NCBI RefSeq assembly: GCF_022808715.1 | Contig: NZ_JAKZKX010000020.1 | Span: 7,760 to 71,759, forward strand | From: Fundidesulfovibrio agrisoli | Lineage (GTDB): Bacteria; Desulfobacterota; Desulfovibrionia; Desulfovibrionales; Desulfovibrionaceae | Reading direction: 5' to 3' | DNA length: 64,000 bases | Shown: piece after piece, positions 6,055 to 22,498 of the stretch | Layout: the number at the start of each line of letters is the position of its first letter | Position numbering within the stretch: the stretch's first letter is position 1 | Made by a program: the position numbers and the translations under genes | The notes under the pieces: generated by a model | What the model was told of the DNA's origin: nothing | Seen by the model: only the letters and a program-made list of their open reading frames with translations | Database searches by the model: none

Positions 6055-6686
6055 CGCGGGTCCCCCGATTCAAGGCGCAAGGAAGCGAGGGGTGGGAAAG
6101 CTCCCGTGGCGAGGACCGCCACAGGTTCGGTTGGGAAGAGGGCTGAGGCCGGCCGGGCTGCGTTCATCCGGTAAACCATAGTTACAGACCTGCAAGATGC
6201 AGTTGATTCGCATGCCCCAGGCCAAGCGGACATGCTTAAATTCCGCTGATTAAAAAATGTCACATGCAAGATGGGGAGTCAATCGGATAAGCGCCAGCCC
6301 TGATGCCCTCCTGGCCAATGGGTTGGCTGCACGATCGGCGTGCGCGCAACATGCCGCAAAGGAAGAAGAAAAAAATAGCAGACGCGATGCGTCCGGGATC
6401 ACGGCGGATTTCCGCAACGCTTCCGTAACGGGGCTTGGGCGCAGGGTTTTATTTTGTTGCGGGATGATGCGGCTGGGGTATGAGGGAATCAATGCCGAAG
6501 GCGGTCTTCGGCAGGCGTCGGAACGGCAACGGAGGGTAGAGGTCGTTAATTCCAGGCACCATAACGGGCGAGTGAGCGCCCCAGCGAGGATTCGTCGAAG
6601 CGCGCCCTAGCCCCCCGATACACTGCGGGGGCCCTGCCGGGAAACGGCAAGCGCAACAAGGCGGATCCTCTTTTTTTAGTGCCGCC
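6055..6686. other. Intergenic region, no supported gene
   Basis: About 630 bp with lower GC in its middle than the flanks. Open frames here (for example 6257-6610 plus and 6250-6492 minus) lack family resemblance and convincing ribosome sites. On the minus strand TTGACT (complement of 6272-6277), 17 bp and CATTTT could be a sigma70 promoter for the kinase at 6054. A hairpin GCCCCC/GGGGGC near 6610-6635 and a second at TGCCG-GGAAA-CGGCA (6635-6650) lie past the stop of the exonuclease gene but have no T tract. I see no tRNA or recognised riboswitch. Confidence 0.4.
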
Positions 6687-7343
6687 CTATTCTTCCTTGG
6701 CGGCTTTCCTGGCGGCCTTGGCGCGAGCGGCGGCCTCTTTTTTCTTGAGCATCGGGCGGATGGCCTCCATGGCCAGGTACAGCTCCCTGCTGACCCAGGC
6801 GTCCGTGGCCGCGTAGCAGACCTGCGCCGGGCTCAGGCAACTGGCCTCCCAGTTGGTCAGCCGCGCCTTCTTGGAGACGCGCACGCCGAGCAGCCCCGCC
6901 GCCAGGTTGCGCAGCCCCGTCACGGGCCAGCCGAATTTCTTGGCCCACTCCCCCACGTCCTCGAAGCGCCTCGGCGTCACCGGGCCCAGCTTGCCCAGGG
7001 CGTTGATGTCGTCGCGCACGGCCACCCCGGCCTTGACCACCGCCTCGTCCCCCAGAACCGCCGTCAGTTCGGCCCAGGCCGCGAAGGCCCCGGGACGCAC
7101 CAGCACCACCAGTTCGGCCCCGGCCAACTGCACCAGGGAGGGCAGGTAATTGACCCCGCGCTTGAAGGTGGGCCGTGTTTCGGTGTCGAAGCCCAGCACG
7201 GCCTCGCCGCCCAGCCGCTCCAGGGCGCGCAGGGCCTCGTCCGGTGTCTGGGCGATGACGACCTCGCCCTCGTAGCGCGCCTGGGGCAGGGCGGCCAGTT
7301 CTTCGGGCAGCATGGCCCGGGGTGGTTCAAAGGGGGTGTTCAT
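6687..7343 (-). CDS. DEDDy 3'-5' exonuclease, RNase D-like
   Basis: 218-residue stand-alone DEDD exonuclease domain. Exo I is FDTETRP near residue 52 (Asp and Glu metal ligands), Exo II lies around KAGVAVRDDINAL near 105, and Exo III is the Y-x3-D of CYAATDAW near 178. This is the DNA_pol_A_exo1/RNase D family without an HRDC domain, so 3' processing of RNA or DNA by a two-metal mechanism is expected. The C-terminus is a Lys/Ala-rich tail (about 195-218). The ATG follows the AlgX-like gene stop by four bases and has GGAG about 11 bases upstream, so it is the last gene of the acetylation operon, probably by position rather than function. Confidence 0.88.
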   Translation of the reverse strand: MNTPFEPPRAMLPEELAALPQARYEGEVVIAQTPDEALRALERLGGEAVLGFDTETRPTFKRGVNYLPSLVQLAGAELVVLVRPGAFAAWAELTAVLGDEAVVKAGVAVRDDINALGKLGPVTPRRFEDVGEWAKKFGWPVTGLRNLAAGLLGVRVSKKARLTNWEASCLSPAQVCYAATDAWVSRELYLAMEAIRPMLKKKEAAARAKAARKAAKEE

Positions 7344-7347
7344 GGCG

Positions 7348-8535
7348 TCACTGCTCCATGGGCAGAGCGGAAGGAGGGGGTGGTTGGGTGAAATAACGCT
7401 CCACGAACTCGTCGATGACGATGTCGGGCTTCTCGTCCAGGATGATCTGGGGCTTGAAGCCGCGCACGTGCACCGCGTCCGTGGGGAAGGGCCAGACGAA
7501 CACCATGCGTGAGAAGTGTTCGGCCAGGAAGGGGATGATCTCGTGCACGAAGGAGTCGCGCAGGACCACGGTCCTGGGCAGGGAGGCGTCCTCGTTCTCG
7601 TAGATGGAGAGCGGCTGGAACTCGTTGAGCCCGGCCTCGCGGCCGGTGGTCTCCCGGGCCTTGCGGGGCAGCAGGGGCTCCATGGTCACGACGTTCTCCG
7701 TGTAGATGTCGCTCATGGCGATCATGCCCGCCAGGCCGCCCTTCAGGCCGGGCCGTTCGCCCACGGCGTAGTCCGAAAGGGGCGCTGGCTTGAGGCCGGG
7801 GAAGTACTTTTTGAGCGCTTCCGCGATCTGCCGGTAGGCGAAGAAGGCGCCGAAGGGCGTCCAATGGCTGTCCGTGCGGTAGTAGGCCGTGCCGTTGGCC
7901 CGGGCTTCGCGCAGGGCGGGCCGCAGGTCCACCACGTCGATGCCCGCCTTGGTCAGGGCCTCGACCATCTGATCCATCTTGTTGGTCTGGCGGGCCTTGG
8001 TGAAGCGTTGGGGCACGTAGTCGGGGTAGATACTCACCTTGTTGGGGGCCACCACCACCATGTAGCGGATGCCAAGCCCGGCCAGCCAGTCGCGGCGGGT
8101 GCGGTAGATGTGCACCCAGGTGTCGAGCTGTTGCGGGGTCAGAGGGGCGGTCACGCGCCAATCGTTGATGACGTTGAGCTGCGGGTTTTCCTGGGCCAGG
8201 TAGAGCCAGTCGTCGTTGCCGGCCAGCACCGGGTCCCACGGCATGGAGGATTTGAGCAACCGCACGTCCAGCAGATGCTCCCAGCGCACCAGCACCCGGC
8301 GCAGGCCGAAGTTGCGGTCCAGCCAGTTGCGCCGCAGCTTGTAGATCACCTGGGCCATGGTGGGGAAGTCCATTCTGATGCTGGGCATGGGGTTGGGGTC
8401 GCTCTCCTGCAGGGGCACCACGGGGTTGATCTTGAGGATGTTGGCCGTGACAGGCACGAGGATGGCCCCAATGAACACGATGGAGACCATCAGGGCGACG
8501 ACCTTGCTCGCCAGGCGGTTGGCTGCGTTGTCCAT
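7348..8535 (-). CDS. AlgX/AlgJ-like SGNH O-acetyltransferase
   Basis: 395-residue protein of the AlgX/AlgJ/DHHW family, which transfers acetyl groups onto exopolysaccharide in the periplasm. An N-terminal hydrophobic segment (about 12-32) acts as signal anchor. The catalytic Asp-His pair is in TDSHWTPFG near 235, and the serine nucleophile is in VVLRDSFVHE near 335. It begins two bases after the stop of the MBOAT gene, matching the usual AlgI-AlgJ/X pairing where the MBOAT protein exports acetyl groups. The open frame on this strand extends far upstream through the MBOAT region only because stops are rare at this GC content; the real start is MDNAANRLASKV. Confidence 0.88.
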   Translation of the reverse strand: MDNAANRLASKVVALMVSIVFIGAILVPVTANILKINPVVPLQESDPNPMPSIRMDFPTMAQVIYKLRRNWLDRNFGLRRVLVRWEHLLDVRLLKSSMPWDPVLAGNDDWLYLAQENPQLNVINDWRVTAPLTPQQLDTWVHIYRTRRDWLAGLGIRYMVVVAPNKVSIYPDYVPQRFTKARQTNKMDQMVEALTKAGIDVVDLRPALREARANGTAYYRTDSHWTPFGAFFAYRQIAEALKKYFPGLKPAPLSDYAVGERPGLKGGLAGMIAMSDIYTENVVTMEPLLPRKARETTGREAGLNEFQPLSIYENEDASLPRTVVLRDSFVHEIIPFLAEHFSRMVFVWPFPTDAVHVRGFKPQIILDEKPDIVIDEFVERYFTQPPPPSALPMEQ

Positions 8536-8537
8536 GC

Positions 8538-9992
8538 TCAGAACTGGAAGTAGATGAACGGGTTGTGGGTTCCGCTGGCCAGCGCCATGCAGGAGAGCAG
8601 CAGGATCGCGGGCATGGCCACCAGTCCGGTGAGGGCGTCGACGAAGGGGCCGTAGAGGAAGCTGCCCGTGCGCTCGAGCATGCGCGCGCGCCAGGCCGCC
8701 AGCCAGGGGATCACCGGGGCGGAGCCGACCACGGCCAGCACCAGCACGATGCCCACCTTGGGGTTCATGAACAGGCCGGGGTGCCACTCCATGCCGGTGC
8801 CGGTGCCCATGCCGGCCATGGCCTTGAGGAAGGCCGTGGCCTGGCCCAGGTTCTCCGCCCGGAAGAACACCCAGCCCACCATGACCACCAGCAGGGTGTA
8901 GGCGTGGGCCAGGGGGCTCCAGGCCTTGTCCATCCAGGCCCCGAAGCGGGTGCGCTCCAGGCCCAGGAAGAAGCCGTGGAACAGGCCCCAGATGATGAAG
9001 CTCCAGCTGGCCCCGTGCCAGAGCCCGCACAGGAAGAAGACAAGCACCAGGTTGAAGGTCACGCGGGCGTTGGAGCAGCGGTTGCCGCCCAGCGGAATGT
9101 AGAGGTAGTCGCGGTACCAGGTGGAGAGCGAGATGTGCCAGCGCCGCCAGAACTCGCGGATGTTGCGGGAGATGTAGGGGTAGTTGAAGTTCTCCAGGAA
9201 CTTGAAGCCGAACATGTGCGCCAGACCGATGGCCATGTCGGAGTAGCCGGAGAAGTCGAAGTAGATCTGCAAAGTGTAGTAGAGCACCCCCAGCCAGGCC
9301 ACGGAGGTGGTCAGCTGGTCGGTGGGCACGGCGAAGATCTTGTCGGCGGGCAGGGCCACCACGTTGGCGATGAGCACCTTCTTGCCCAGGCCGGTGACGA
9401 AGCGCCGCACGCCGTAGGCGAAGCGCTCCACGGTGACGGTGCGCCCGGAGAGCTGGCCAGCGATGTCCTTGTAGCGGACGATGGGGCCGGCCACCAGCTG
9501 CGGGAACAGGGCGATGTAGAGCGCGAGCTGGCTCAGCGAGGCGTTGGGCGGGGTCTGCCTGCGGTAGATGTCCATCAGGTAGGAGATGCAGTGGAATGTG
9601 AAGAAGGAGACGCCGATGGGCAGGTGCACCTTGCCCACGTCGATGGGGTGCATGCCGAGCGGCGACACCACGAAATGATTGAGGTTGTCGACGATGAAGT
9701 TGGTGTATTTGAAGATGACCAGCAGCGTGATGTTGAAGGCGATGGCCAGCCCGATCTGGAGCTTGGCCGAGGAGGTCCGGTGGGCGTTGTGCACCCAGAG
9801 CCCGAACCAGAAGTTGGCCAGGATGGAGACGGCCATGACGATGGTGTAGGCCCCCTCGCCCCAGGCGTAGAAAACGAAACTGGCCGCCAGCAGCAGGGTG
9901 TTGCGGATCTTGAGCGTGGATGCGCCGACATAGTACAGCAGCAGCACCAGTGGCAGAAAATAGAATAGAAAAGATGCGGAACTGAAGACCAT
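8538..9992 (-). CDS. MBOAT family O-acyltransferase (AlgI-like)
   Basis: 484-residue polytopic membrane protein of the AlgI/DltB branch of MBOAT acyltransferases. Diagnostic segments are QLVAGPIVRYKDI near 148, DFSGYSDMAIGLA near 247, the FWRRWHISLSTWYRDYLY signature near 290 with the conserved histidine, and GLWHGASWSFIIWG near 330 with the second, catalytic histidine. It should move acetyl groups across the membrane to the AlgX-like partner encoded next. The ATG at 9992 has AGGA five bases upstream. The leader and first about 30 codons are duplicated at 11905-12074, where the copy has decayed. The promoter is annotated separately. Confidence 0.92.
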   Translation of the reverse strand: MVFSSASFLFYFLPLVLLLYYVGASTLKIRNTLLLAASFVFYAWGEGAYTIVMAVSILANFWFGLWVHNAHRTSSAKLQIGLAIAFNITLLVIFKYTNFIVDNLNHFVVSPLGMHPIDVGKVHLPIGVSFFTFHCISYLMDIYRRQTPPNASLSQLALYIALFPQLVAGPIVRYKDIAGQLSGRTVTVERFAYGVRRFVTGLGKKVLIANVVALPADKIFAVPTDQLTTSVAWLGVLYYTLQIYFDFSGYSDMAIGLAHMFGFKFLENFNYPYISRNIREFWRRWHISLSTWYRDYLYIPLGGNRCSNARVTFNLVLVFFLCGLWHGASWSFIIWGLFHGFFLGLERTRFGAWMDKAWSPLAHAYTLLVVMVGWVFFRAENLGQATAFLKAMAGMGTGTGMEWHPGLFMNPKVGIVLVLAVVGSAPVIPWLAAWRARMLERTGSFLYGPFVDALTGLVAMPAILLLSCMALASGTHNPFIYFQF

Positions 9993-10080
9993 GCGATCCT
10001 GCGGTGTATGGACGATTTGGTGCTTGCCCGAAGGGTGGTTGCCCCTTACCCGATGGAGCCGCTTTTGACAACTCCCGCCC
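9898..10080 (-). repeat. MBOAT 5' end and leader, intact copy of a direct repeat
   Basis: About 180 bp covering the first 30 codons of the MBOAT gene and its leader recur at 11905-12074 in the same orientation. The leader half is the better conserved part (long identical runs such as GATGGAGCCGCTTTTGACAA), while the coding half has diverged strongly in the second copy. Confidence 0.7.
10043..10071 (-). promoter_or_regulatory. Predicted sigma70 promoter of the MBOAT operon
   Basis: On the minus strand TTGTCA (10066-10071) is followed after exactly 17 bp by TAAGGG (10043-10048), about 50 bp ahead of the MBOAT start codon. The same TTGTCA-17-TAAGCG arrangement is kept in the duplicated leader at 12038-12066, which supports it as a functional element. 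The -10 hexamer is weak. Confidence 0.5.
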
Positions 10081-10144
10081 CTGGAAGCCCCGCGGGCGTC
10101 TGTCCGGCGTATCCCGGTGCGGTCGGGCCAGGCGGCCTTCCGCC

Positions 10145-11830
10145 TCAGCGCCCGGCGGGTTGCGACCGGAAGAAGATGTCCGCCCCGTGGTGGAAGAGCT
10201 GGGCGCTGCCGGAAAGGGTCACCCGTACCTCCAGCGCGTCGCCCGCGTCGTTTGGCGGCACGAACCCGTAGCGTTCGCCCACCGGCATCCATTCTCCGGT
10301 GTCGTACTGTGCGGTCTCCGAGATTTTGCGCCACTGCCCGCCCAGCTTGGCCTCCACCAGGACGACGCCTTTGTTGGAGAACAGGCGCGGATGGTAATAG
10401 ACGGGGCCCTTCCAGCCGTCGAGGCGCAACACTCCCCGCATGACGCCGGCCTTGGCCGGGTCCTGGGGGGCGATCTTGCACCAGCCTTGCGGGGCCAGGC
10501 TCTCCTCGGTCGAGGCCAGGTTCCGCATCTCGACCTCCGCGATCTCCAGGGGCAGGGCGGGCGGCTTGGCGAAATCGCGCCCGGCGTAATATTCGCCCCA
10601 CCCGGCATAATAGGACAGGGCCGCGTCCATCGACTCTTTGGAGGGGACTGGGCACATGCCTAGGCGGTCCCGCATGAAACCGGAATCGCGCAGCTTCTCG
10701 AAGACCTCTCTGGCGAGCAGGTAATTGAGCAGCTGCGAGTAATGCGTTTCGTCAAGGAACAGGCGGAAAGCCTCCGGATGGCGTTCCGTCAGGGCGTCCA
10801 CCCAGGGCTGCATGTCCACGAACATGGCGCCGCTGGCGCTTGCGGCGCTGCGCAAAACGGAGCGCGTGTATTCCCGCCCGAACTTGAACAGGGGCACGTT
10901 GACAGGGTAGGGGATCCTGTCCGCCTCCTTGGCGGCGGAGGCGTCCGGCCTGACGATCCAGCCATAGTTGACGACCACCACGGGGGTGCCCCGGCTTTGG
11001 CGCTCGCGGATGAAGGCCGCGACGTTCTCAGCAAAACCGAAGGCCTTCATCTTGTGCTCCATGGCGTCGGCGGTGAACCATGACTCCACGGCCAGGCGCG
11101 CTTCCCGGAGCATGGCCGCGCGGCCGAGCAGGTCGAAAAGATCCTTCGGCCCCGACCTGGGTTGCCAGGCCGGCCATTTCCCGGAGCCGCCTTCGTCCGG
11201 CTCAGGGGTGTCCATGGCTACGAGCCTCGTGAGCACGCCGCGCTGCCGCACCGCCTCGTCCACGTTGCTGATCGACGCCGCGGTCAGGACGTCGGTGACG
11301 CCGTCCATCACCACGTAGAGGTCTGGCGACAGCTCCTCCAGCTCCGTATTGGCGCGGATGCGCGTATGCCAGCTGTTGTAGCCCACCACGCCCGCGTTGA
11401 TGACCTCCGCCTGCACGGGGCAGCCTTTCAGGGCCAGGTCGAACATCTGTTGCAGCAGCGCCGGGTAGGAGGTCTTGGGTCCGCTGTAGCCGTAGGTGGT
11501 GGAGTTGCCCACGCAAACGATTCTGACGGTGTCCGGCTTTTTTCGGGCCTCGACGGTGCGGCCGGCGTAGGCCCTCACGTCCCCCTGGGCCTCGGGGAGG
11601 CGGGTCTCGAGCCTGTAGCCCAGTTGCGGGTCGGGCATGCAGGTCACCCTGAACGCCTGCGGATCGAACGCGGGGGGCTTGGCCCCGGGCGCGCCGTGGG
11701 GGGCCTCACCCTGCGCGTGCAGCAGGGCGAAGACCTCCAGCCCCAGGCAGGAGCCGATGAAGGCCAGGAAGATGGCCACACTCATACAGGCGACAGCCCT
11801 TTCCGCCCGGTGGTTGGTCATGCTGCCCAT
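10145..11830 (-). CDS. Membrane-anchored SGNH/GDSL hydrolase
   Basis: 561-residue protein with one N-terminal membrane anchor (about 14-36) and an SGNH hydrolase domain. Block I is IVCVGNSTTYGYSGP near 105 (serine in GNST replacing GDS), block II is NAGVVGYNSW near 145, and block V is DETHYSQLLNYLL near 365 with the Asp-His pair. The C-terminal 190 residues form an additional beta-rich region of unknown type. Position upstream of the MBOAT and AlgX-like genes suggests deacetylation or acetyl transfer on the same glycan. Neither ATG 11830 nor ATG 11821 has a clear ribosome site; translation may be coupled to the 56-codon relic frame (11818-11988) that overlaps the start. Confidence 0.82.
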   Translation of the reverse strand: MGSMTNHRAERAVACMSVAIFLAFIGSCLGLEVFALLHAQGEAPHGAPGAKPPAFDPQAFRVTCMPDPQLGYRLETRLPEAQGDVRAYAGRTVEARKKPDTVRIVCVGNSTTYGYSGPKTSYPALLQQMFDLALKGCPVQAEVINAGVVGYNSWHTRIRANTELEELSPDLYVVMDGVTDVLTAASISNVDEAVRQRGVLTRLVAMDTPEPDEGGSGKWPAWQPRSGPKDLFDLLGRAAMLREARLAVESWFTADAMEHKMKAFGFAENVAAFIRERQSRGTPVVVVNYGWIVRPDASAAKEADRIPYPVNVPLFKFGREYTRSVLRSAASASGAMFVDMQPWVDALTERHPEAFRLFLDETHYSQLLNYLLAREVFEKLRDSGFMRDRLGMCPVPSKESMDAALSYYAGWGEYYAGRDFAKPPALPLEIAEVEMRNLASTEESLAPQGWCKIAPQDPAKAGVMRGVLRLDGWKGPVYYHPRLFSNKGVVLVEAKLGGQWRKISETAQYDTGEWMPVGERYGFVPPNDAGDALEVRVTLSGSAQLFHHGADIFFRSQPAGR

Positions 11831-11988
11831 GTGCGGCGCCGCATCGGGACGGAGTCATGGAGCGGGCCGCAGGCCGGCGCCGTGCCGAGGTTTGGCGGAG
11901 TGTTGCGAATCATGAACGGGGACGGGCCGGAACAGCAATGGAGCACCGGTGGGTGGGCATGATAGGAAGCTGAGGGGCTGAAAGCCAT
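11818..11988 (-). pseudogene. Decayed 5' fragment of an MBOAT gene
   Basis: A 56-codon open frame starting MAFSPSASY has a leader nearly identical to that of the MBOAT gene at 9992 (MVFSSASFLF). At DNA level 11905-11988 aligns with 9898-9992, including GTGTTGCG-ATC and the region encoding IRNT in both. The hydrophobic segment is destroyed and the frame ends at 11818, 13 bp inside the following SGNH hydrolase gene. It looks like what remains after recombination or deletion removed a second MBOAT copy. It could still be translated and couple ribosomes to the hydrolase start. Confidence 0.6.
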
Positions 11989-12037
11989 GCGATCCTGCGC
12001 TGTCTGGACGATTTGTAGCTTGCCCGGAGGACGGTAG

Positions 12038-12066
12038 CGCTTATCCGATGGAGCCGCTTTTGACAA
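12038..12066 (-). promoter_or_regulatory. Predicted sigma70 promoter, duplicated copy
   Basis: TTGTCA (complement of 12061-12066), 17 bp and TAAGCG (complement of 12038-12043) lie ahead of the MBOAT relic and the SGNH hydrolase gene. Spacing is identical to the copy at 10043-10071. It would drive the hydrolase gene, and is back to back with the plus-strand gene at 12109. Confidence 0.48.
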
Positions 12067-12108
12067 CTCCCGCTCCGGGAGGCTAGCAACCGGGCCAAAG
12101 GAGCATCC

Positions 12109-13608
12109 ATGCACAAAGACTTGCCACGCGTCGCCGTTGCCTGCCCCCCTTCGGGGGTCGGAGCCTGGCAAACGGCCGCCCTGGCCGCCCTGGGTCAGTC
12201 CGGCGTCCCCGTGACCCTGCCCGAAGCCGGGGCCTGCCCGCCGTGGCTGCCCGCGCCCTGGGGCCTGTTCCTGGGCCGGGAGAAGGCCGCCCCCGTGGCG
12301 GGCGGCCTCGTGGCCCCCGGCGCTTCCGGCGCGGAGCTGCTGCTGGCCCCGCCGGGCCTGCGCGCGGGTGCGGAGCTTGCCGCCCTGCTGCCGTTGGGCC
12401 TCCTTGAGGTGGAGGCCTTCCACCCCGCCCTGGCGCGCGACGGCGCGCTGGAAGGCCGCGTGCTCTGGCGGAGGGCCACCGCCCCGGGCAGGCTGGAGAC
12501 GCGCCTGGCCGCCAGCGTGGCCACCTGCATGGAAGGCCCCCTGCCCGGCGGCTGGGCCGCCAACCACCTGGCCAAGCTCTCCCGCGCGCCCGCCGGAATC
12601 CTGGCGCGCATGGGCGCGGACCCTGAGGCTTTCTGGAACGCCTGCCCGCCGTGCGAACCCCTGCCGCCCTTCAGGCCCTCGGGCCTGAGCTGGCTCCGCT
12701 TCGCCGCCGATCTGGCCCGCTGGGGCCTGACCCGCGCCTGGCAGGATCTGCTGCACCGCCGCCAGTGGTTTCTGGCCGTGCGCCCGGGCGGGGGCGACCC
12801 GCTTGCTCCGGGGTTCGCCGCGCGGCGCTTCGCGCCCCTGTACCCGCCCAAGGGCACGGGCTGGGCCGACCCGCTGTTCTTTAGCCGGGGCGGGCGGAGC
12901 TGGCTGTTCATCGAGGAGATTCCGCCCTCGGGCCGGGGCGTCATCAGCGTGATGGATTTCGACGGCAAGAATTTCGGCCCGCCCAGGCGCGTGCTGGAGG
13001 AGCCGTTCCACCTCTCCTACCCCAACGTGTTCGAGCACGGCGGCGAGGCCTACATGCTGCCCGAGACCTCCCAGGCCGGGCAGGTGCGGCTGTACCGCGC
13101 CACGGATTTCCCCGGGGGCTGGGTGCTGGACAGGGTGCTGCTCGACGGCCTGCGCGCCGTGGACGCCACCCTGGTGGAGCATGGCGGGGCCTGGTGGCTG
13201 CTGGCCAACGTGCGCGGGGAGCGCGGCTCCTCCTGGGACGAGCTGCACGTGTTCAAGGGGCCGTCGCCCCTGGGGCCGTTCACGCCGCACAGGCTGAACC
13301 CCGTGGTCTCGGATGTGCGCAGGGCCAGGCCCGCGGGCCGCATCGCGCGCCTGGGCGGGCGGCTGGTGCGCTACGGGCAGGACTGCTCGGGCTGGTACGG
13401 CCGGGCCCTGGCCGTGACGGAGATCACCCGCCTGGACGACGACGGCTACGAGGAGAGGCCCCTGGCCCGCCTGGAGCCCGGGCTCATCGAGGGAGGCAGC
13501 TTCTGCCTCCATACTTTTGACGCTCTGGCGGGAGGCTCACTGGCCGGTGACGCCCAGGCCGGGCTTGAGGTCGTCGACGGGCAGCGCCGCGTTCTTCTTT
13601 GGCGCTGA
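12109..13608 (+). CDS. Beta-propeller transferase-like protein (GINT1-N/formyltransferase-like)
   Basis: 499 residues. The C-terminal about 270 residues (WADPLFF near 258, LFIEEI, DFDGKNFGPPR, PFHLSYPNVFEHGG, AYMLPETSQAG, DATLVEHGG, GPFTPHRLNPV) match the five-bladed beta-propeller seen in glucosamine inositolphosphorylceramide transferase-like and GH43-like proteins that bacteria use in surface glycan synthesis. The N-terminal about 220 residues look like a diverged formyltransferase-type domain without obvious catalytic residues. The start has AAAGGAG seven bases upstream. It is divergent from the acetylation operon and probably modifies the same polysaccharide. The last 72 bp overlap the convergent gene at 13537. 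The reaction is not known to me. Confidence 0.72.
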   Translation: MHKDLPRVAVACPPSGVGAWQTAALAALGQSGVPVTLPEAGACPPWLPAPWGLFLGREKAAPVAGGLVAPGASGAELLLAPPGLRAGAELAALLPLGLLEVEAFHPALARDGALEGRVLWRRATAPGRLETRLAASVATCMEGPLPGGWAANHLAKLSRAPAGILARMGADPEAFWNACPPCEPLPPFRPSGLSWLRFAADLARWGLTRAWQDLLHRRQWFLAVRPGGGDPLAPGFAARRFAPLYPPKGTGWADPLFFSRGGRSWLFIEEIPPSGRGVISVMDFDGKNFGPPRRVLEEPFHLSYPNVFEHGGEAYMLPETSQAGQVRLYRATDFPGGWVLDRVLLDGLRAVDATLVEHGGAWWLLANVRGERGSSWDELHVFKGPSPLGPFTPHRLNPVVSDVRRARPAGRIARLGGRLVRYGQDCSGWYGRALAVTEITRLDDDGYEERPLARLEPGLIEGGSFCLHTFDALAGGSLAGDAQAGLEVVDGQRRVLLWR

Positions 13609-13962
13609 GGCGTCCGGCGGCGGGGGCGGCCCGTAGGACACGATGGAGACCAGCTCGCAGACCACGCCGCGCTTGGTGCCGCGCACGTCCGTGACCATGA
13701 ACTTCACGGCCTGCCCCTCTTCGAGGGCGGCCTTGGTGGCTTCGCCCTGCAAGGGCAGGGGCACGTTCACGGCCACGGTCTGGTCTTCGGAATCCACGGC
13801 GTAGCCCAGCACCGCGCCGTTCTTTTCCGAAACTGAATTGATGACCCCCTCCAGCGGCGAGGGCTTCAGCGGGTCCGTCTTGCCGAAGGTGATGAGCAGC
13901 GCCAGGGCTATGGCGCAGGCAAGGGCGAAATATTTGGCCGAACGCAACTCGGCGTACTGCAT
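13537..13962 (-). CDS. Hypothetical membrane-anchored protein
   Basis: 141 residues with an N-terminal membrane helix (about 10-27), a small beta-rich domain (30-112; VINSVSEKNGAVLGYAVD, VNVPLPLQGEA, VKFMVTDVRGTKRGVV) and a Pro/Ala/Lys-rich tail. GGAGGAG lies close to the ATG. The beta segment resembles a cold-shock or OB-like strand pattern but I cannot assign a family. The 3' end overlaps the 3' end of the propeller gene by 72 bp, tail to tail. It stands alone otherwise, divergent from the gene at 14029. Confidence 0.65.
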   Translation of the reverse strand: MQYAELRSAKYFALACAIALALLITFGKTDPLKPSPLEGVINSVSEKNGAVLGYAVDSEDQTVAVNVPLPLQGEATKAALEEGQAVKFMVTDVRGTKRGVVCELVSIVSYGPPPPPDASAPKKNAALPVDDLKPGLGVTGQ

Positions 13963-14028
13963 GACTCCTCCATGTTGGACAATCTGGCCTGTTCCTTGCT
14001 AAGAATTATAATAGGCAAGGAGGCCGTC

Positions 14029-14352
14029 ATGACCACGAAATCTCATCTTTCAGCCGCACCGGCCATGCCGGCGCCGTGGGGCGCCGCCCGCCTGCACCCG
14101 CTGGACATGGAGGACGTGGCCCTCTCCAGGGAGGCGCTGCGGGTTCTCGGCGACACGGCCAGGAAACTGCTGGTCCGGGCAGGGGCCGAAGAAACCTCGA
14201 TGGCCCGGATAATCAAGGCGTTCTGCGCCAAGGCGTTCTGGAACGAGAGCGACGGGGCTCTGCTGCTCTGCGGCGAGCTGGATGGCAGGATGGTCTGCCT
14301 GCCGGTGCCCGCCGGGCACTGGGAGGTGGCCGTGAGCGGCCCGGCGCATTGA
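14029..14352 (+). CDS. Hypothetical cytoplasmic protein
   Basis: 107 residues with no membrane segment, no signal and no motif I know. The central part (DMEDVALSREALRVLGDTARKLLVRAG) is helical, followed by DGALLLCGELDGRMVCLPVP, which looks like a beta hairpin. The chosen ATG has AAGGAGG six bases upstream; an in-frame ATG at 13972 has no ribosome site. A perfect -10 hexamer TATAAT is at 14007-14012, only about 17 bp before the start codon, so the mRNA leader would be very short; a matching -35 is not clear. Single-gene transcript, divergent from 13962 and convergent with mazG. Confidence 0.6.
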   Translation: MTTKSHLSAAPAMPAPWGAARLHPLDMEDVALSREALRVLGDTARKLLVRAGAEETSMARIIKAFCAKAFWNESDGALLLCGELDGRMVCLPVPAGHWEVAVSGPAH

Positions 14353-14472
14353 GCGCGCCGCATCAGTCTGAGCTGGGCGGTGGCGAACGCCTGGCGCGTC
14401 CCGCCCGGGGGCAATATAATGCCGCTCCCGGCGGGAGGAAGGGCCTCCGCCTGATACGGCGCGGGCGAACGC

Positions 14473-15255
14473 CTATTTCTCGCGCTTCTTGACCTCGTCC
14501 CAGAGGGCGTCCCAATCAGCCAGCCGGAAGTCCGCAGTGTTCAGGCCGCGCTCGGCGGCCAGGGCCTCCATGGCCTCGAAACGGGCCAGGAAGCGGGCGT
14601 TGGCGCCCTCCAGGGCGGAGTTGGCCTTCACGCCCAGCCTGCGCCCGTACTCCACCACGCAGAAAAGATAATCCCCGAATTCGGCCTCCACCCGCTCCTG
14701 GTCGCCTGAGGCCACGGCCTCCTGCAGCTCCTGCCACTCGCGGCCCATCTGGGCGGCCTGGGCGGCGTCGTCCTCCCAGGTGAAGCGGTGGCGCGCGGCC
14801 TTGGAGCCCAGGCGGTAGGCCTTGAGCAGCGGGGGCAGGCCCCTGGGCAGGGAGGCGAAGATACCCTCCTTGTTGTCCTTCTCCTGGCGCTTGATGCGCT
14901 CCCAGTTGCGCAGCAGCTCCTCCTGGTTCTCCACGTTCAGCCCCTCGAACACGTGGGGGTGGCGGCGGATCATCTTGGCCGCGATGGCGTCGATGGAGTC
15001 GGCCAGGGTGAAGGAGCCCTTCTCCTCGTAGAGCGCACCCAGGAAGCAGAGCAGGAAGAGCACGTCGCCCAGCTCCTCCATGGCGCCGTGCTCGTCACCC
15101 GCGCGGATGGCCTCCACCAGCTCGTGGGCCTCCTCGATGACGTAGTCGCAGAGGCTCTCGGGGGTCTGTTTGCGGTCCCAGGGGCAGCCCTCGGGGCCGA
15201 GCAGCGTGGAAACGACCTGGCGCAGCTTGGCCAGGGAGTCGCCTGTATTGGGCAT
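14473..15255 (-). CDS. mazG: Nucleoside triphosphate pyrophosphohydrolase MazG
   Basis: 260 residues with two MazG domains as in the E. coli protein. The N-terminal domain carries the metal-binding series EEAHELVEAI near 41 and EELGDVLFLL near 60; the C-terminal domain has a second set (VEAEFGDYLFCVVEYGRR near 191). It hydrolyses NTPs to NMP and pyrophosphate, removing aberrant nucleotides. CPWDRKQTPESL near 24 is the usual family start. It is eleven bases downstream of cvpA on the same strand, so the two are cotranscribed. Confidence 0.93.
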   Translation of the reverse strand: MPNTGDSLAKLRQVVSTLLGPEGCPWDRKQTPESLCDYVIEEAHELVEAIRAGDEHGAMEELGDVLFLLCFLGALYEEKGSFTLADSIDAIAAKMIRRHPHVFEGLNVENQEELLRNWERIKRQEKDNKEGIFASLPRGLPPLLKAYRLGSKAARHRFTWEDDAAQAAQMGREWQELQEAVASGDQERVEAEFGDYLFCVVEYGRRLGVKANSALEGANARFLARFEAMEALAAERGLNTADFRLADWDALWDEVKKREK

Positions 15256-15266
15256 GGGGGACGTCC

Positions 15267-15875
15267 TTATGTGGTGCTTTTCTTCTGCCCGTGCGGCTTG
15301 GCGGGCGTGGGCGCGGGAGCGGGCGCCGGAGCGGGCGGAGACGCCGGGGGCTCCACCACCTTCTTCTGGGGCGTCACCGGCGGGGGCGTCAGGCTCTTGA
15401 GCTTCTGCTTCCAGTCCGGCGGGATGTATTCCGAGATGAAGCCGTCGACCTTCTCCAGCACCGGCACCAGCTTGGAGCTGGCCATGAAATCGGGCCGGGG
15501 CAGGAGCGCCGTCCAGACCCAGAGCACCACCGCCGTGAGCAGCACGCCCTTGGCCAGGCCGAAGAAGCCGCCGAAGAACTTGTTGGCCCAGTCGATGAGC
15601 GTGAGCTTCATCAGCCCCGTGATGCCCACCACGATCAGCGAGCAGGCGATCATGGTGCCCACGAAGATGATGATGAACGCGGCCGGGCCCGCGAAGGCCG
15701 GGTTGGAGACCATGGGCGCGATGTGCGGCGAGAGCTGCGGCGAATAGGCCACGGCCAGCTTGAAGCCGAAGACCAGCGCCAGGATGGAGGCGGCCTCCTT
15801 GACGAGGCCCCGCAGGTACCCCCGGAAAAAGAAGAAGCCCCAGATGATGAGCAGGGCGAGATCGACGATGTTCAC
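15267..15875 (-). CDS. cvpA: CvpA family membrane protein
   Basis: 202 residues with four predicted membrane helices in the first 125 residues (DLALLIIWGFFFFRGYLRG at the start, then FIIIFVGTMIACSLIVVGI and GVLLTAVVLWVW), typical of CvpA/colicin V production proteins. The C-terminal 60 residues are a Pro/Ala-rich, probably cytoplasmic tail (PAPAPAPAPTPAKP) that is longer than in the E. coli protein. The family is linked to envelope homeostasis; the molecular function is unresolved. It precedes mazG in the same transcript. Confidence 0.85.
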   Translation of the reverse strand: MNIVDLALLIIWGFFFFRGYLRGLVKEAASILALVFGFKLAVAYSPQLSPHIAPMVSNPAFAGPAAFIIIFVGTMIACSLIVVGITGLMKLTLIDWANKFFGGFFGLAKGVLLTAVVLWVWTALLPRPDFMASSKLVPVLEKVDGFISEYIPPDWKQKLKSLTPPPVTPQKKVVEPPASPPAPAPAPAPTPAKPHGQKKSTT

Positions 15876-15916
15876 GCCGAGGGCGTATCAGGTTTTTTCG
15901 CGGGAGGCAAAAGGGG

Positions 15917-16384
15917 CTACAGCGCCCCCTCGAGCTCCAGCAGCCACTTTTTCATCTCGAGCCCCGGTCCGAAGCCGCCAAGCCCGCCGCCGGAGGCCAG
16001 CACCCGGTGGCAGGGGTAGATCAGGGGCCAGCGGTTGCTGGCCATCACCTGCCCCACGGCCCGCGCCGCGCCCGGGCTGCCGCAGATGGCCGCCAGCCCG
16101 CCGTAGCTTACCACCTGCCCGGCGGGCACGCGCACAAGCTCCTCCAGCACGCGGCGCTTGAAGCGCGGCATGCCCTCCAGCTCGATGGGCAGCTCGGGCC
16201 AGTCCACACGCTCCCCGGCCACGTAACGGTCCAGCGCCTTGGCCAGCTCGCGTCCCATCTCCGTGACCAGGCGGGGCGCGTCCCCGGGGGCGGACCAGGA
16301 GAGCGACATGTTCCGCAACGTGCCGTCGCTCCAGGCCAGATCCAGGCGAAGAGGGGCGGATACGAGCGTTTCGGTGAGGATCAT
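15917..16384 (-). CDS. ogt: Methylated-DNA--protein-cysteine methyltransferase
   Basis: 155-residue DNA repair protein that removes O6-methylguanine by suicide transfer to Cys125, in the motif YPCHRV (family consensus PCHRV). The helix-turn-helix part (VPAGQVVSYGGLA near 86, then AARAVGQVMASNRWP) inserts into DNA. The N-terminal domain is short, as usual in stand-alone Ogt. ATG 16384 has AAGGAG eight bases upstream and overlaps the stop of the upstream secreted-protein gene by four bases, so the earlier in-frame start at 16492 is rejected. Confidence 0.93.
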   Translation of the reverse strand: MILTETLVSAPLRLDLAWSDGTLRNMSLSWSAPGDAPRLVTEMGRELAKALDRYVAGERVDWPELPIELEGMPRFKRRVLEELVRVPAGQVVSYGGLAAICGSPGAARAVGQVMASNRWPLIYPCHRVLASGGGLGGFGPGLEMKKWLLELEGAL

Positions 16385-17040
16385 TGCGCGTTCTCCTTCT
16401 TGTAGGCCGCCTGGGGCGACAGGGCGAGGCTCAGGGCCGCCTGGTGCAGGGCCTCCTCGTAGATGGGGCGCTGATCCTCGGTGATGTACCAAGTCAGGCG
16501 CAGGAAGCCGTCCGAGGTGAGCCAGGTGTACGTTGCGCTGATGACCTGGCGGCCCAGGGCGCGGTTGAAACCGGCCTCCTTATAATAGTGCATGCGCCTG
16601 GTGGGGAAGTGTTCTTTTTCCAGAAAGGCCGTCCCCGGGGGGGCGGCGTCCTCCCGGTCGCGTTCGACCAGCACGTGGTCCATGAACAGCTCCTGGGGAG
16701 TGCGCTTCCTGCCCGTTTCCCGGGTGATGAGCATGAAGGGCGTGACGAACCATGTGTCGGCCTTCTTCTGGAACCCGGCGTGGGTCCGGCGGAACGCGGC
16801 CAGCTCCTCGTGGGGCACCGGGGCCTGCTTGCCGGGGTGCTCGAACAGGAACAGCTCCAGGGGCGGGATGCGCACGAAGTCCGCCGGGAGGTTCAGGGAG
16901 TAGGAGCCGTCGTCTGCCGAGGCCAGCGGTTCGGCGGCGCGGGCCGGATGGGAGGCCGCGAGCAGCGCCAGCAGAGCCAGCTGGGCCAGAAAGGCCGGAA
17001 GCGCCAGGGCCGGAAGAAGGTGGGCGGTGGGCCGGGTCAT
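16381..17040 (-). CDS. Secreted hypothetical protein
   Basis: 219 residues with a clear Sec signal peptide (helix 9-29, likely cleavage after ARA at about 36). The mature part begins ADDGSYSLNLPADFVRIPP and contains LTWYITEDQRPIYEEALHQ near the C-terminus, a layout like periplasmic proteins that describe a polypeptide with a mixed alpha/beta fold; I do not recognise the family. Start and stop overlap its neighbours by four bases on each side (radical SAM gene upstream, ogt downstream), so it belongs to that operon. Confidence 0.72.
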   Translation of the reverse strand: MTRPTAHLLPALALPAFLAQLALLALLAASHPARAAEPLASADDGSYSLNLPADFVRIPPLELFLFEHPGKQAPVPHEELAAFRRTHAGFQKKADTWFVTPFMLITRETGRKRTPQELFMDHVLVERDREDAAPPGTAFLEKEHFPTRRMHYYKEAGFNRALGRQVISATYTWLTSDGFLRLTWYITEDQRPIYEEALHQAALSLALSPQAAYKKENAQ

Positions 17041-17975
17041 ATTCGCTCCGTTCGGTTCATGCCCTGGCGCACGCCGCGCACGCGCAGGACCTCCGCGATG
17101 GTGTTGTGCAGCCGTCTCCTGGCCCCGGCCCAGGCCGGGGCCACCAGCTCGCCGTGGGCCGGGTCCGCGTGCAGGCGGTGCACCACGATCTCCGGGCGCA
17201 GCCGGGCCAGGGCGCGGGCCACGAAGTCGGCGTACTCCTCCAGTTCGGGCAGGGGGGCTTCCCCTTCCAGGTGCATCCGGGCCAGCTCCGTGCCCTTGGC
17301 GGCGTAGACGTTGTGGAACTTGACGCCCGCCACGGGCAGGGCGTTCACGAAGTCCACGCTGGCGTCCCAGTCCGCGCGCGCCTCGCCGGGAAGCCCGGCC
17401 ATGAGGTGCGCCGTGACCTTGAGCCCGGCCCCGGCGGCCATGCGCACCGCTGCAGCGAAACAGGCCGCGTCGTGCCCCCGGCGGATGCGGGCAAGTGTTG
17501 CCGGGTTGGACGACTGCAAACCCAGTTCCAGCCAGAACTCCTCCACGGGGAGGGCGGCCAGCAGGGCGGTCTTTTCCTCGTCCAGGCTGTCGGGGCGGGT
17601 GGCCAGGCAGAGCCCGGCCATGTCCGGCAGGGCGGCCAGTTCGTCCAGCACGGCGGCCAGGCGTTCAGCCGGACCGTGGGTGTTGGAGAAAGCCTGGAGG
17701 TAGCCCACCAGGGCGAGATCCTGGCCCCAGCGGGCGCGCAGGCGCTGGCTCCAGTAGGCCCACTGGGCGCCGAGGGGCATGCGGCTGCCGAGCCCGGTGC
17801 CCGACCCCCTGGCGTTGCAGAAGATGCAGCCCCCCGCGGCCAGGGTGCCGTCGCGGTTGGGGCAGCCGAAACCGGCGTCGAGCGGAACCTTGCGGGCGGC
17901 CCTGCCGAAGAGCGCGCGCCAACGGGCGGAAACCGCGTTGTACGGCCGGGCCTTCTGGGGTGAAACGTGGTCCAT
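17037..17975 (-). CDS. TIGR01212-type radical SAM protein (YhcC-like)
   Basis: 312 residues. The iron-sulfur cluster cysteines are in GFGCPNRDG near 36 and GGCIFCN near 48, giving the C-x11-C-x2-C spacing of this subgroup rather than the usual CxxxCxxC. NAVSARWRALFG at the N-terminus, LQAFSNTHG, ATRPDS, LELGLQSSN and HLMAGLPGE are family signatures. The reaction of the YhcC group is not established. It heads a tightly packed operon with the secreted unknown, ogt and possibly more. The ribosome site before ATG 17975 is weak. Confidence 0.87.
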   Translation of the reverse strand: MDHVSPQKARPYNAVSARWRALFGRAARKVPLDAGFGCPNRDGTLAAGGCIFCNARGSGTGLGSRMPLGAQWAYWSQRLRARWGQDLALVGYLQAFSNTHGPAERLAAVLDELAALPDMAGLCLATRPDSLDEEKTALLAALPVEEFWLELGLQSSNPATLARIRRGHDAACFAAAVRMAAGAGLKVTAHLMAGLPGEARADWDASVDFVNALPVAGVKFHNVYAAKGTELARMHLEGEAPLPELEEYADFVARALARLRPEIVVHRLHADPAHGELVAPAWAGARRRLHNTIAEVLRVRGVRQGMNRTERI

Positions 17976-18012
17976 CAGAGTAAAATCCCGTTGACATCAC
18001 GGCTCGAATTGA

Positions 18013-20196
<2,184 letters not shown>

Positions 20197-20200
<4 letters not shown>

Positions 20201-20667
20201 CCGGCCGGCGCGCGGCTTTCTGGACGGTGTTCACCCTGGCGGGCATGTGGCTGCAAAGCTTTCTTCCGGGCGTGGACTTCCTCGCCCCGGGACTTATCCT
20301 GAGCCTCCAGGAGGAGAAGCTCCGAACCACCGTCATCCTTGGCGTGATCTGGCTGTTCATCCAGGAGGGCACAGGCTCGCTGGCCTTCGGCACCGTGGTG
20401 CTCTGGTACGCGCTGCTGGTGGGCCTGTTCTTCTTCGGGCACTGGCTCTTCGAGGCCAGGAATTTCTTGTTCATGATGATCCTCGGGGCCTGCCTCGGGG
20501 TGCTGCACTTCGGACTGATGGACGTGATGACCCAGCTGCAGGACTGGCGCGCCGCGCCGGGCCGGGTGCTGGTGGAGTCCATCGTGCAGGCCGTGGTCTT
20601 CCCCGTCGAGTGGGGACTGATTTACATCATCCACAACCACCTGCCCCAAAATGGCCAAAACATATGA
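20197..20667 (+). CDS. mreD: Rod shape-determining membrane protein MreD
   Basis: 156-residue polytopic membrane protein with about five hydrophobic segments (FWTVFTLAGMWLQSFLPG, TTVILGVIWLFIQEG, WYALLVGLFFFGHWLF, LFMMILGACLGVLHFGLM and the C-terminal FPVEWGLIYIIH). MreD sequences are poorly conserved; the assignment rests on membrane topology, length and location between mreC and mrdA. Its ATG overlaps the mreC stop by four bases and its 3' end overlaps mrdA by 17 bp. Confidence 0.82.
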
Positions 20668-22498
20668 GCCCGAATCCGGGCAGCAAGCCCCGCGCGGCGG
20701 CCTGATACTGCTCCAGGTCCTGATCCTGGGGCTGTTCTGCCTGTTCGTGGTCCGCCTGTGGTATCTGCAGATCCACAAGGGCGAACACTTCGCCGACCTG
20801 GCCCGCGAGAACCAGATGCGCCAGGCCTCCATCATTGCGGCCCGCGGCATGATCCTGGACCGCAACGGCAAGCCCCTGGCCATCAACGAGCCATCCTTCG
20901 CCCTGGGCCTGATCCGCGAGGACTGCCCCGACGTGCAGGGCACCCTGCAGAAGGTGGCGGAGTGGACCGGGCTCGACTACCAGGCCCTGCTGGACACCTA
21001 CATCCGCGGCAAGAAGCGCTCCAAGCCCTTCGAGCCGTTGGTGCTCATCTCCAACCTGTCCTACGAGCTGCTGGCCAAAATCGAGGCCAACGCCGTGTCC
21101 TGGCCGGGGCTCGAGATCCTCACCCGCCACAAGCGCTACTACCCCAACGGGGATCTGCTGGCGCACGTGATGGGCTACGTGGCCGAAGCCAACGAAGAGG
21201 AGTTGGAGAAGGACTCCCGCCTGGCCCTGGGCGACCACGTGGGCAAGCAAGGCCTGGAGCTCACCCTTGAGCAGCGCCTGCGCGGCGAGAAGGGCCTCAA
21301 GCAGATCGAGGTGGACGCCTACGGCCGCGAGCACGACCAGCAGGTCCTGCTGGAGCCGCGCGCGGGCAACAGCCTGTCGCTCTCCATCGATATCGACCTG
21401 CAGGCCTACGCCACCAAGCAGCTGGAAGGGCAGGCGGGCTCCATCGTGGTCCTTGAGCCCAACACCGGCAAGGTGCTGGCCCTGGTGAGCCAGCCCACCT
21501 ACGACAACAACCTCTTCGTGCTGGGCATCCCTCCCAAGAAGTGGAAGGAGCTGCGCGACGACCCCATGCACCCCATCCAGAACCGGGTGTCGCAGTCGGT
21601 GTACCCGCCGGGCTCCACCTTCAAGCTGCTCATGGCGGCCTGCGCGCTCTCCGAGGGCATCGTCAAGCCCACGGACACGGTGTTCTGCTCCGGCTCCTAC
21701 CGCGTGGGCGACCACGACTTCCACTGCTGGAAGAAGGGCGGCCACGGCAGCGTGGACATGCGCTCCGCCCTTGTGCACTCCTGCGACGTCTACTTCTACC
21801 AGTTGGGCGAGAAGCTGGGCATCGACCGCATCAACCGCTTCGCCCTGCAGGCGGGGTTCGGCGCGCCCACCGGCATCGACCTGCCCCACGAGCGCTCCGG
21901 CCTGATCCCCTCCACGGCCTGGAAGAAGCGCCGCTACGGCGAGAACTGGACCCGCGGCGAAACGCTCAACTGCTCCATCGGCCAGGGCTACGTGCAGGTC
22001 TCCCCCCTGCAGTTGGCCAAGTTCTACGCTTCGCTGATAAACGGCGGCAAGGTCATCCGGCCGAGCCTGGTGCTCACCGACCCCGTGGACGTGCAGAGCC
22101 AGCTCCCCCTCTCCGAGAAGGACCGCGACTTCCTGATGAAGGCCATGGTGGAGACGGTCAACTCCGGCACGGGCCAGAAGATCAAGCGCGCCGACGCCAT
22201 GATGGGCGCCAAGACGGGCACGGCCCAGGTGGTCAAGCTCATCAACGCCGACATCCGGGCCAAGACCAAGGACACCCCCTACAAGTACCGCGACCACGCC
22301 TGGATCGCCACCTGGGGCATCAAGGACAACAAGAGCTACGTGGTGATCTGCATGCTCGAGCACGGCGGCCACGGCGGCGAGGACGCGGGCCCCCTGGTGC
22401 GCAACGTCTACGACTACCTCTTCGGCCCGTCCAAGCCGCTGCCCCCCGCCCCCAAGGGCGAGGCGGCCCAGGCCCAAACCCAGGGACGCCAGGACTAG
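20651..22498 (+). CDS. mrdA: Penicillin-binding protein 2 (class B transpeptidase)
   Basis: 615-residue elongasome transpeptidase that cross-links peptidoglycan. One membrane anchor (about 17-38), a pedestal domain (RGMILDRNGKPLAINE near 65) and a transpeptidase domain follow. Active-site motifs are S322-T-F-K, S377-C-D (SxN variant) and K521-T-G-T. The tail is Pro/Ala/Gln-rich. The start overlaps mreD by 17 bp and the stop is three bases before rodA, its SEDS glycosyltransferase partner. Confidence 0.95.
   Translation: MAKTYEPESGQQAPRGGLILLQVLILGLFCLFVVRLWYLQIHKGEHFADLARENQMRQASIIAARGMILDRNGKPLAINEPSFALGLIREDCPDVQGTLQKVAEWTGLDYQALLDTYIRGKKRSKPFEPLVLISNLSYELLAKIEANAVSWPGLEILTRHKRYYPNGDLLAHVMGYVAEANEEELEKDSRLALGDHVGKQGLELTLEQRLRGEKGLKQIEVDAYGREHDQQVLLEPRAGNSLSLSIDIDLQAYATKQLEGQAGSIVVLEPNTGKVLALVSQPTYDNNLFVLGIPPKKWKELRDDPMHPIQNRVSQSVYPPGSTFKLLMAACALSEGIVKPTDTVFCSGSYRVGDHDFHCWKKGGHGSVDMRSALVHSCDVYFYQLGEKLGIDRINRFALQAGFGAPTGIDLPHERSGLIPSTAWKKRRYGENWTRGETLNCSIGQGYVQVSPLQLAKFYASLINGGKVIRPSLVLTDPVDVQSQLPLSEKDRDFLMKAMVETVNSGTGQKIKRADAMMGAKTGTAQVVKLINADIRAKTKDTPYKYRDHAWIATWGIKDNKSYVVICMLEHGGHGGEDAGPLVRNVYDYLFGPSKPLPPAPKGEAAQAQTQGRQD

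Follow-up and report, generated by a model that had tools for sequence, protein, structure and literature searches.

A 64,000-nucleotide stretch of the draft genome of Fundidesulfovibrio agrisoli (the window; contig NZ_JAKZKX010000020.1, positions 7,760 to 71,759) raises the question of why the start of an MBOAT O-acyltransferase gene occurs twice, once at the head of the intact gene and once, in decayed form, in front of an SGNH/GDSL hydrolase-like gene. We hold with considerable confidence that an insertion bearing the SGNH gene duplicated a leader shared by two divergent genes, MBOAT and a GINT1-like gene, the second copy being the GINT1-side leader joined to a decayed MBOAT start. This reading draws on the repeat itself, the synteny around it, empty sites in relatives and the conservation of a core motif, each of which is directly observed. 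The case is an ordinary kind of genome rearrangement.

Copy A (9898–10088, minus strand) spans the leader together with the opening 31 codons of intact MBOAT, and shows 12 differences over 191 bp from the single copy in a same-genus relative, G003. Copy B (11900–12083, minus strand), aligned to both copy A and G003, comprises the GINT1-side leader and the decayed MBOAT start. The two copies align end to end with a local score of 154, whereas none of 200 shuffles scored above 30, and are separated by 34–35 substitutions plus five or six short gaps, depending on gap cost, or by 45 substitutions in an alternative alignment with fewer gaps. A repeat search resolves two blocks, one of 72 nt at 81% (spacing 1996) and one of 44 nt at 91% (spacing 1995). 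The initial annotation, made from the sequence of the window, had reported a shared leader with TTGTCA-17-TAAG and the first MBOAT codons at two places, and the alignment confirms this, the TTGTCA-17-TAAG motif being present in both A and B. The repeat is longer than described there, extending GINT1-ward in copy A and on both sides in copy B. No third copy was found in the whole draft genome (G000; 52 contigs), where copy A as query recovers its own site with E 1.7e-106 and copy B with E 2e-29, and the best of the 33 genome matches after A and B covers ~30 bases at E 0.0086. The leader has no Rfam match, the single match, below gathering score, lying inside the MBOAT gene, and no unusually stable leader fold was seen (z-scores of 0.40 for A and 0.80 for B); a structured RNA was rejected on these results.

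Comparison with six same-genus genomes (G001–G006) reveals the state of the locus without the SGNH gene. This MBOAT is present at 78–96% identity in four of them (G001–G004), and G005 and G006 (66% complete) hold remote MBOATs only. Each of the four carries the AlgX-like/MBOAT gene pair, one leader and the divergent GINT1-like gene, within synteny that continues to either side; the 18 kb read per locus contain no SGNH match. Aligned to G003, the left block of the window (6368–10088) and the right block (11900–21276) overlap at L040 8617–8807. This overlap of 191 bp, present once in G003 and twice in the window, matches both A and B, and places the SGNH gene in an 1811-bp insert flanked by a duplication (10089–11899, minus strand), missing at the syntenic place in all four relatives and with SGNH as its sole recognised gene. 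Both junctions are sharp. On the left, copy A departs from G003 at 10088, before TAGCAA, while copy B and G003 continue together into GINT1; on the right, copy B departs from the MBOAT sequence at 11900. The leader in G003 is 122 bp long.

This MBOAT is matched at E 1e-170 in 24 genomes, and the upstream regions of 21 of them were compared (the window genome, G001–G004 and 16 of other genera). The element GTTGTCAAA is located 80–138 bp upstream of MBOAT in all 21 regions (loci including L062–L081 and L058), with GTAAG at the same distance from it in 18. In the window, copy A carries the core as GTTGTCAAA-N13-GGTAAG (10045–10072, minus strand), and copy B carries the same core (12040–12067, minus strand), its first 23 letters identical through CCATCGG and followed by ATAAG where copy A has GTAAG. 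Three genera have the core ahead of MBOAT, and in two of these the flank examined contains no GINT1; the 16 other-genus loci show no GINT1-like gene over the flank covered (~1.5 kb each, extended to 4.4 kb in L058 and reduced in three loci truncated by contig ends). Because it is kept where no GINT1 is found, the core most likely belongs to MBOAT, and is probably the MBOAT promoter. In its strict form it occurs in 5 of 33 genomes and solely at this locus, once each in G001–G004 and twice in the window genome. Family-wide, the core pattern occurs once each in 18 of 288 genomes, with 16 of the 18 sites at MBOAT by position; this pattern misses copy B owing to ATAAG. The two remaining sites, in genomes of another genus (G227 and G233; L091 and L092), have a gap of 12 bp, shorter by one base, and do not adjoin an MBOAT gene. 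The initial annotation had named a known transcription factor site as a possible source of the leader similarity, and the core is not spread over the genome as a widespread site would be. A mobile repeat or regulon site was rejected, A and B being the sole long genome matches and the strict core being restricted to this locus.

On the opposite strand, a candidate GINT1 promoter, TTGACA-18-TAGC, was recognised by sequence comparison and is whole in copy B (12060–12087, plus strand). Copy A holds TTGACA (10065–10070) but stops at 10088, just short of TAGC. The motif TTGACA-17/18-TAGC, with spacing read by eye, precedes GINT1 in G001–G004 and in copy B, and is not present in copy A. The −35 boxes of the MBOAT and GINT1 candidate promoters overlap on opposite strands.

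These features suggest the following history. The ancestor would have had one leader between the leftward MBOAT and the rightward GINT1-like gene, serving both. DNA carrying SGNH would have entered this leader, leaving the 191-bp target (leader plus 31 MBOAT codons) on both sides, with 184 bp left in copy B. Copy A would have stayed before the intact MBOAT, severed from the GINT1 −10 region; copy B would have stayed before GINT1 with the candidate promoter whole, and its MBOAT start, severed from the gene, would have decayed. Copy B, which presents an MBOAT-type core, a likely ribosome site and a start codon to SGNH, most likely drives both GINT1 and SGNH, a conclusion for which we infer promoter activity and SGNH transcription from the sequence.

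The insertion may have proceeded by one-sided homologous joining or through one crossover with a circular molecule that shared the leader, either of which would yield this product. Insertion-duplication (Campbell) integration, a single crossover with circular DNA, generates a repeat-insert-repeat arrangement in which the repeat length equals the shared homology. The locus has the same repeat-insert-repeat form; unlike Campbell integration, no vector or phage part is recognised in the insert, and the donor circle is hypothetical. Homology-facilitated illegitimate recombination is proposed for type VI effector modules of Vibrio cholerae (PMC5361080). As in those modules, a new gene is joined at a conserved 5′ region with remnants of the old arrangement beside it; unlike in V. 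cholerae, where the old effector gene is displaced (PMC5361080), MBOAT is whole here and the leader is doubled, and the same mechanism is only a candidate for this locus. Transposon insertion was rejected, since the insert has no terminal inverted repeat above chance (80-bp ends, P 0.65) and no Pfam match at E 0.01 in its seven other frames, and the duplication measures 191 bp. Non-homologous end joining was rejected as well because the genome has no Ku (PF02735), which is absent from G000 and its six genus mates and present in 1 of 13 genomes searched.

Copy B is unevenly preserved. Changes found in B only, relative to A and G003, occupy 2 of 43 promoter positions and 29 of 139 positions elsewhere (Fisher p 0.011), a contrast that fits selection for GINT1, SGNH or both. 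The initial annotation had reasoned that the leader is better kept and hence functional. The better conservation of the promoter part stands, but taken alone it is no proof that copy B drives SGNH because B also holds the candidate GINT1 promoter, and GINT1 alone could be a sufficient cause.

The decayed MBOAT start lies in a relic frame (11818–11988, minus strand) composed of 89 bases of MBOAT origin (~29 codons including the start) followed by insert sequence, with no Pfam match. It begins with a start codon at 11988–11986, runs for 56 codons and ends with TGA at 11820–11818, 13 bp inside the longest SGNH frame, in agreement with the open frame reported previously; as a conserved gene it is found in 0 of the 4 relatives, all of which lack copy B. 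The longest SGNH frame starts with the ATG at 11830, and a possible alternative ATG at 11821 (11821–11819) overlaps the relic TGA as ATGA. Under simulated decay with the observed gaps, the 56-codon frame stays open in 63% of the simulations, or in 45% if the spacer is shuffled; the open frame was rejected as evidence of selection (P 0.63), as was the loss of hydrophobicity, which falls within the simulated range (P 0.15). We think it unlikely that the insertion turned one two-way promoter into two and that the relic MBOAT start is translated, passing ribosomes to SGNH via the ATGA; if so, the newcomer gene would have gained an entire, conserved expression platform at a single stroke.

Three other accounts of the locus were weighed. 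The initial annotation had proposed tandem duplication of an acetylation cassette with a second full MBOAT gene, later deleted to leave its start before SGNH. Duplication did take place and one MBOAT start did decay, but duplication of a cassette is not supported. A second MBOAT, which would account for the MBOAT start held in register by copy B, is very improbable: G001–G004 have one MBOAT and no SGNH at the locus, MBOAT sequence in the two SGNH flanks inside the insert is at chance level (P 0.32 and 0.42 in comparison with the rest of MBOAT, and 0.83 with its next stretch), and the arrival of SGNH would still be needed. That copy B was kept solely as the GINT1 promoter, with SGNH silent from B or using signals of the insert, is compatible with the insertion and a lesser but real possibility. 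The candidate GINT1 −35/−10 pair is whole in B, and a purine-rich stretch precedes a later in-frame SGNH ATG; yet the core kept in B is also kept elsewhere where no GINT1 is found, and B retains the 15 letters from the ribosome site through the start codon, which chance could have spared. An older insertion, with SGNH and the repeats already in the G000/G003 ancestor and lost in G003 by repeat recombination, is compatible with the core of our reading and seems somewhat doubtful. It requires an additional loss, and A and B share GGC at three adjacent columns where G003 has CCG. Copies A and B group together in the tree with 91% support, or 76% when only the leader is used, a mild preference in the approximately unbiased test (p 0.05 for the alternatives). 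Over its untranslated portion, B lies 18–20% from A and G003 and 51–59% from G001, G002 and G004, a far greater distance that makes the duplication younger than the split from those three.

Several results weigh against an insertion after the G000/G003 split, or against other parts of the history that we favour. Without the three adjacent columns, support for the A–B pairing drops to 53%, leaving the topology weak. The decayed, unconstrained part of B is highly divergent: if the duplication postdates the split, its changes exceed what neutral per-lineage rates would produce (P 4e-8 to 6e-4, by rate; P 0.02 to 0.19 when only the untranslated part is counted). An older insertion followed by precise loss in G003 would fit this excess. 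The per-lineage rates were 0.092 at fourfold sites (0.105 corrected) and 0.062 in intergenic sequence, the latter from four longer segments, with aligned segments of 4–25 bases dropped and 6055–6686 aligned over 319 bases only. Counting all A–B differences, the promoter contrast weakens to 4 of 43 versus 31 of 139 positions (p 0.076). The 56-bp segment separating SGNH from copy A resembles the start of the GINT1 region slightly more closely than expected by chance (P 0.03, one of several comparisons), a likeness that the proposed history does not predict and on which we place no weight. No site passes a sigma-70 consensus scan, the GINT1 candidate included, so both promoters remain candidates.

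The inserted SGNH/GDSL hydrolase-like gene (10145–11830, minus strand; PF13472, E 3.7e-11, above cut-off) encodes 561 amino acids with an N-terminal hydrophobic stretch. Blocks I, II, III and V of the superfamily carry Ser, Gly, Asn and Asp/His, respectively. Ser110, Gly147, Asp360 and His363 are invariant in a five-sequence alignment, with block assignment read by eye. Block III reads GVTD in the window, with Thr179 at the Asn position, versus GxND in all four aligned homologues; the oxyanion Asn is thus missing, with Ser, Asp and His retained. The predicted structure is weak (mean predicted local distance difference test score of 62), and its PDB matches, which include the acetylated-mannan esterase CEX and carbohydrate-binding modules but also unrelated proteins, offer only a hint.

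The closest SGNH homologues in the genus share 42% (G002) and 41% (G004) identity and lie at other loci. A search for a donor came up empty: at E 1e-60, the gene is found in 1 of 395 genomes of the phylum sample, its own, and in 5 family genomes out of 288, its own included; plasmid records gave no match. Third-position G+C of the window SGNH is 0.88, in line with its neighbours (0.82–0.95). In the G002 and G004 homologues (L049 7372–9150 and L050 7382–8968), it is 0.55 and 0.52 versus 0.76–0.92 in neighbouring frames, which suggests separate gene acquisitions at these unrelated loci. Two short pairs of direct repeats (24–27 nt, 71–78%), one flanking the gene, are present near the L049 homologue, and none was found near those of L050 and L051.

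The intact MBOAT gene (8538–9992, minus strand; PF03062, E 1.2e-28) encodes a protein ending in IYFQF. DltB chains are among its PDB matches, and it matches the NCBIfam DltB model at E 1.7e-46 but with 159 bits, under the cut-off of 375; three further MBOAT genes elsewhere in the genome are 38–45% paralogues. Its AlgX-like SGNH partner (7348–8535, minus strand; PF16822, E 6.3e-31) adjoins MBOAT in the relatives as well. AlgI with AlgX or AlgJ forms an MBOAT-SGNH O-acetyltransferase pair. PatA/PatB is described as such a pair, with a C-terminal Tyr-bearing hexapeptide on the MBOAT of MBOAT-SGNH pairs (PMC12148441). On our reading of its letters, the IYFQF end is in keeping with this hexapeptide. 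As in PatA/PatB and AlgI-AlgX/AlgJ, the MBOAT has what we read as a Tyr-containing aromatic C-terminal tail and stands beside an AlgX-type SGNH protein; unlike in such pairs, the SGNH gene of the insert adds a third protein, which is of Lipase_GDSL_2 type and not the AlgX-type partner.

The GINT1-like gene (12109–13608, plus strand; PF24793), divergent from MBOAT, is identified by Pfam and by synteny with the four relatives. The first 165 residues of its product (window 12109–12600) are less conserved than the remainder in 10 of 10 genome pairs. An imported tract on the GINT1 side was rejected, as the weaker similarity of these residues holds in all ten pairs.

The locus provides a before-and-after case in which a gene arrives in a divergent promoter and neither neighbour is cut off. 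Through the duplication both resident genes keep a promoter of their own, and the newcomer may have acquired one too. The case also cautions against reading every decayed gene start in front of another gene as the trace of a lost whole gene. The conserved core is a candidate dedicated promoter/operator of the acetylation genes and could point the way to a regulator of surface-polymer acetylation.

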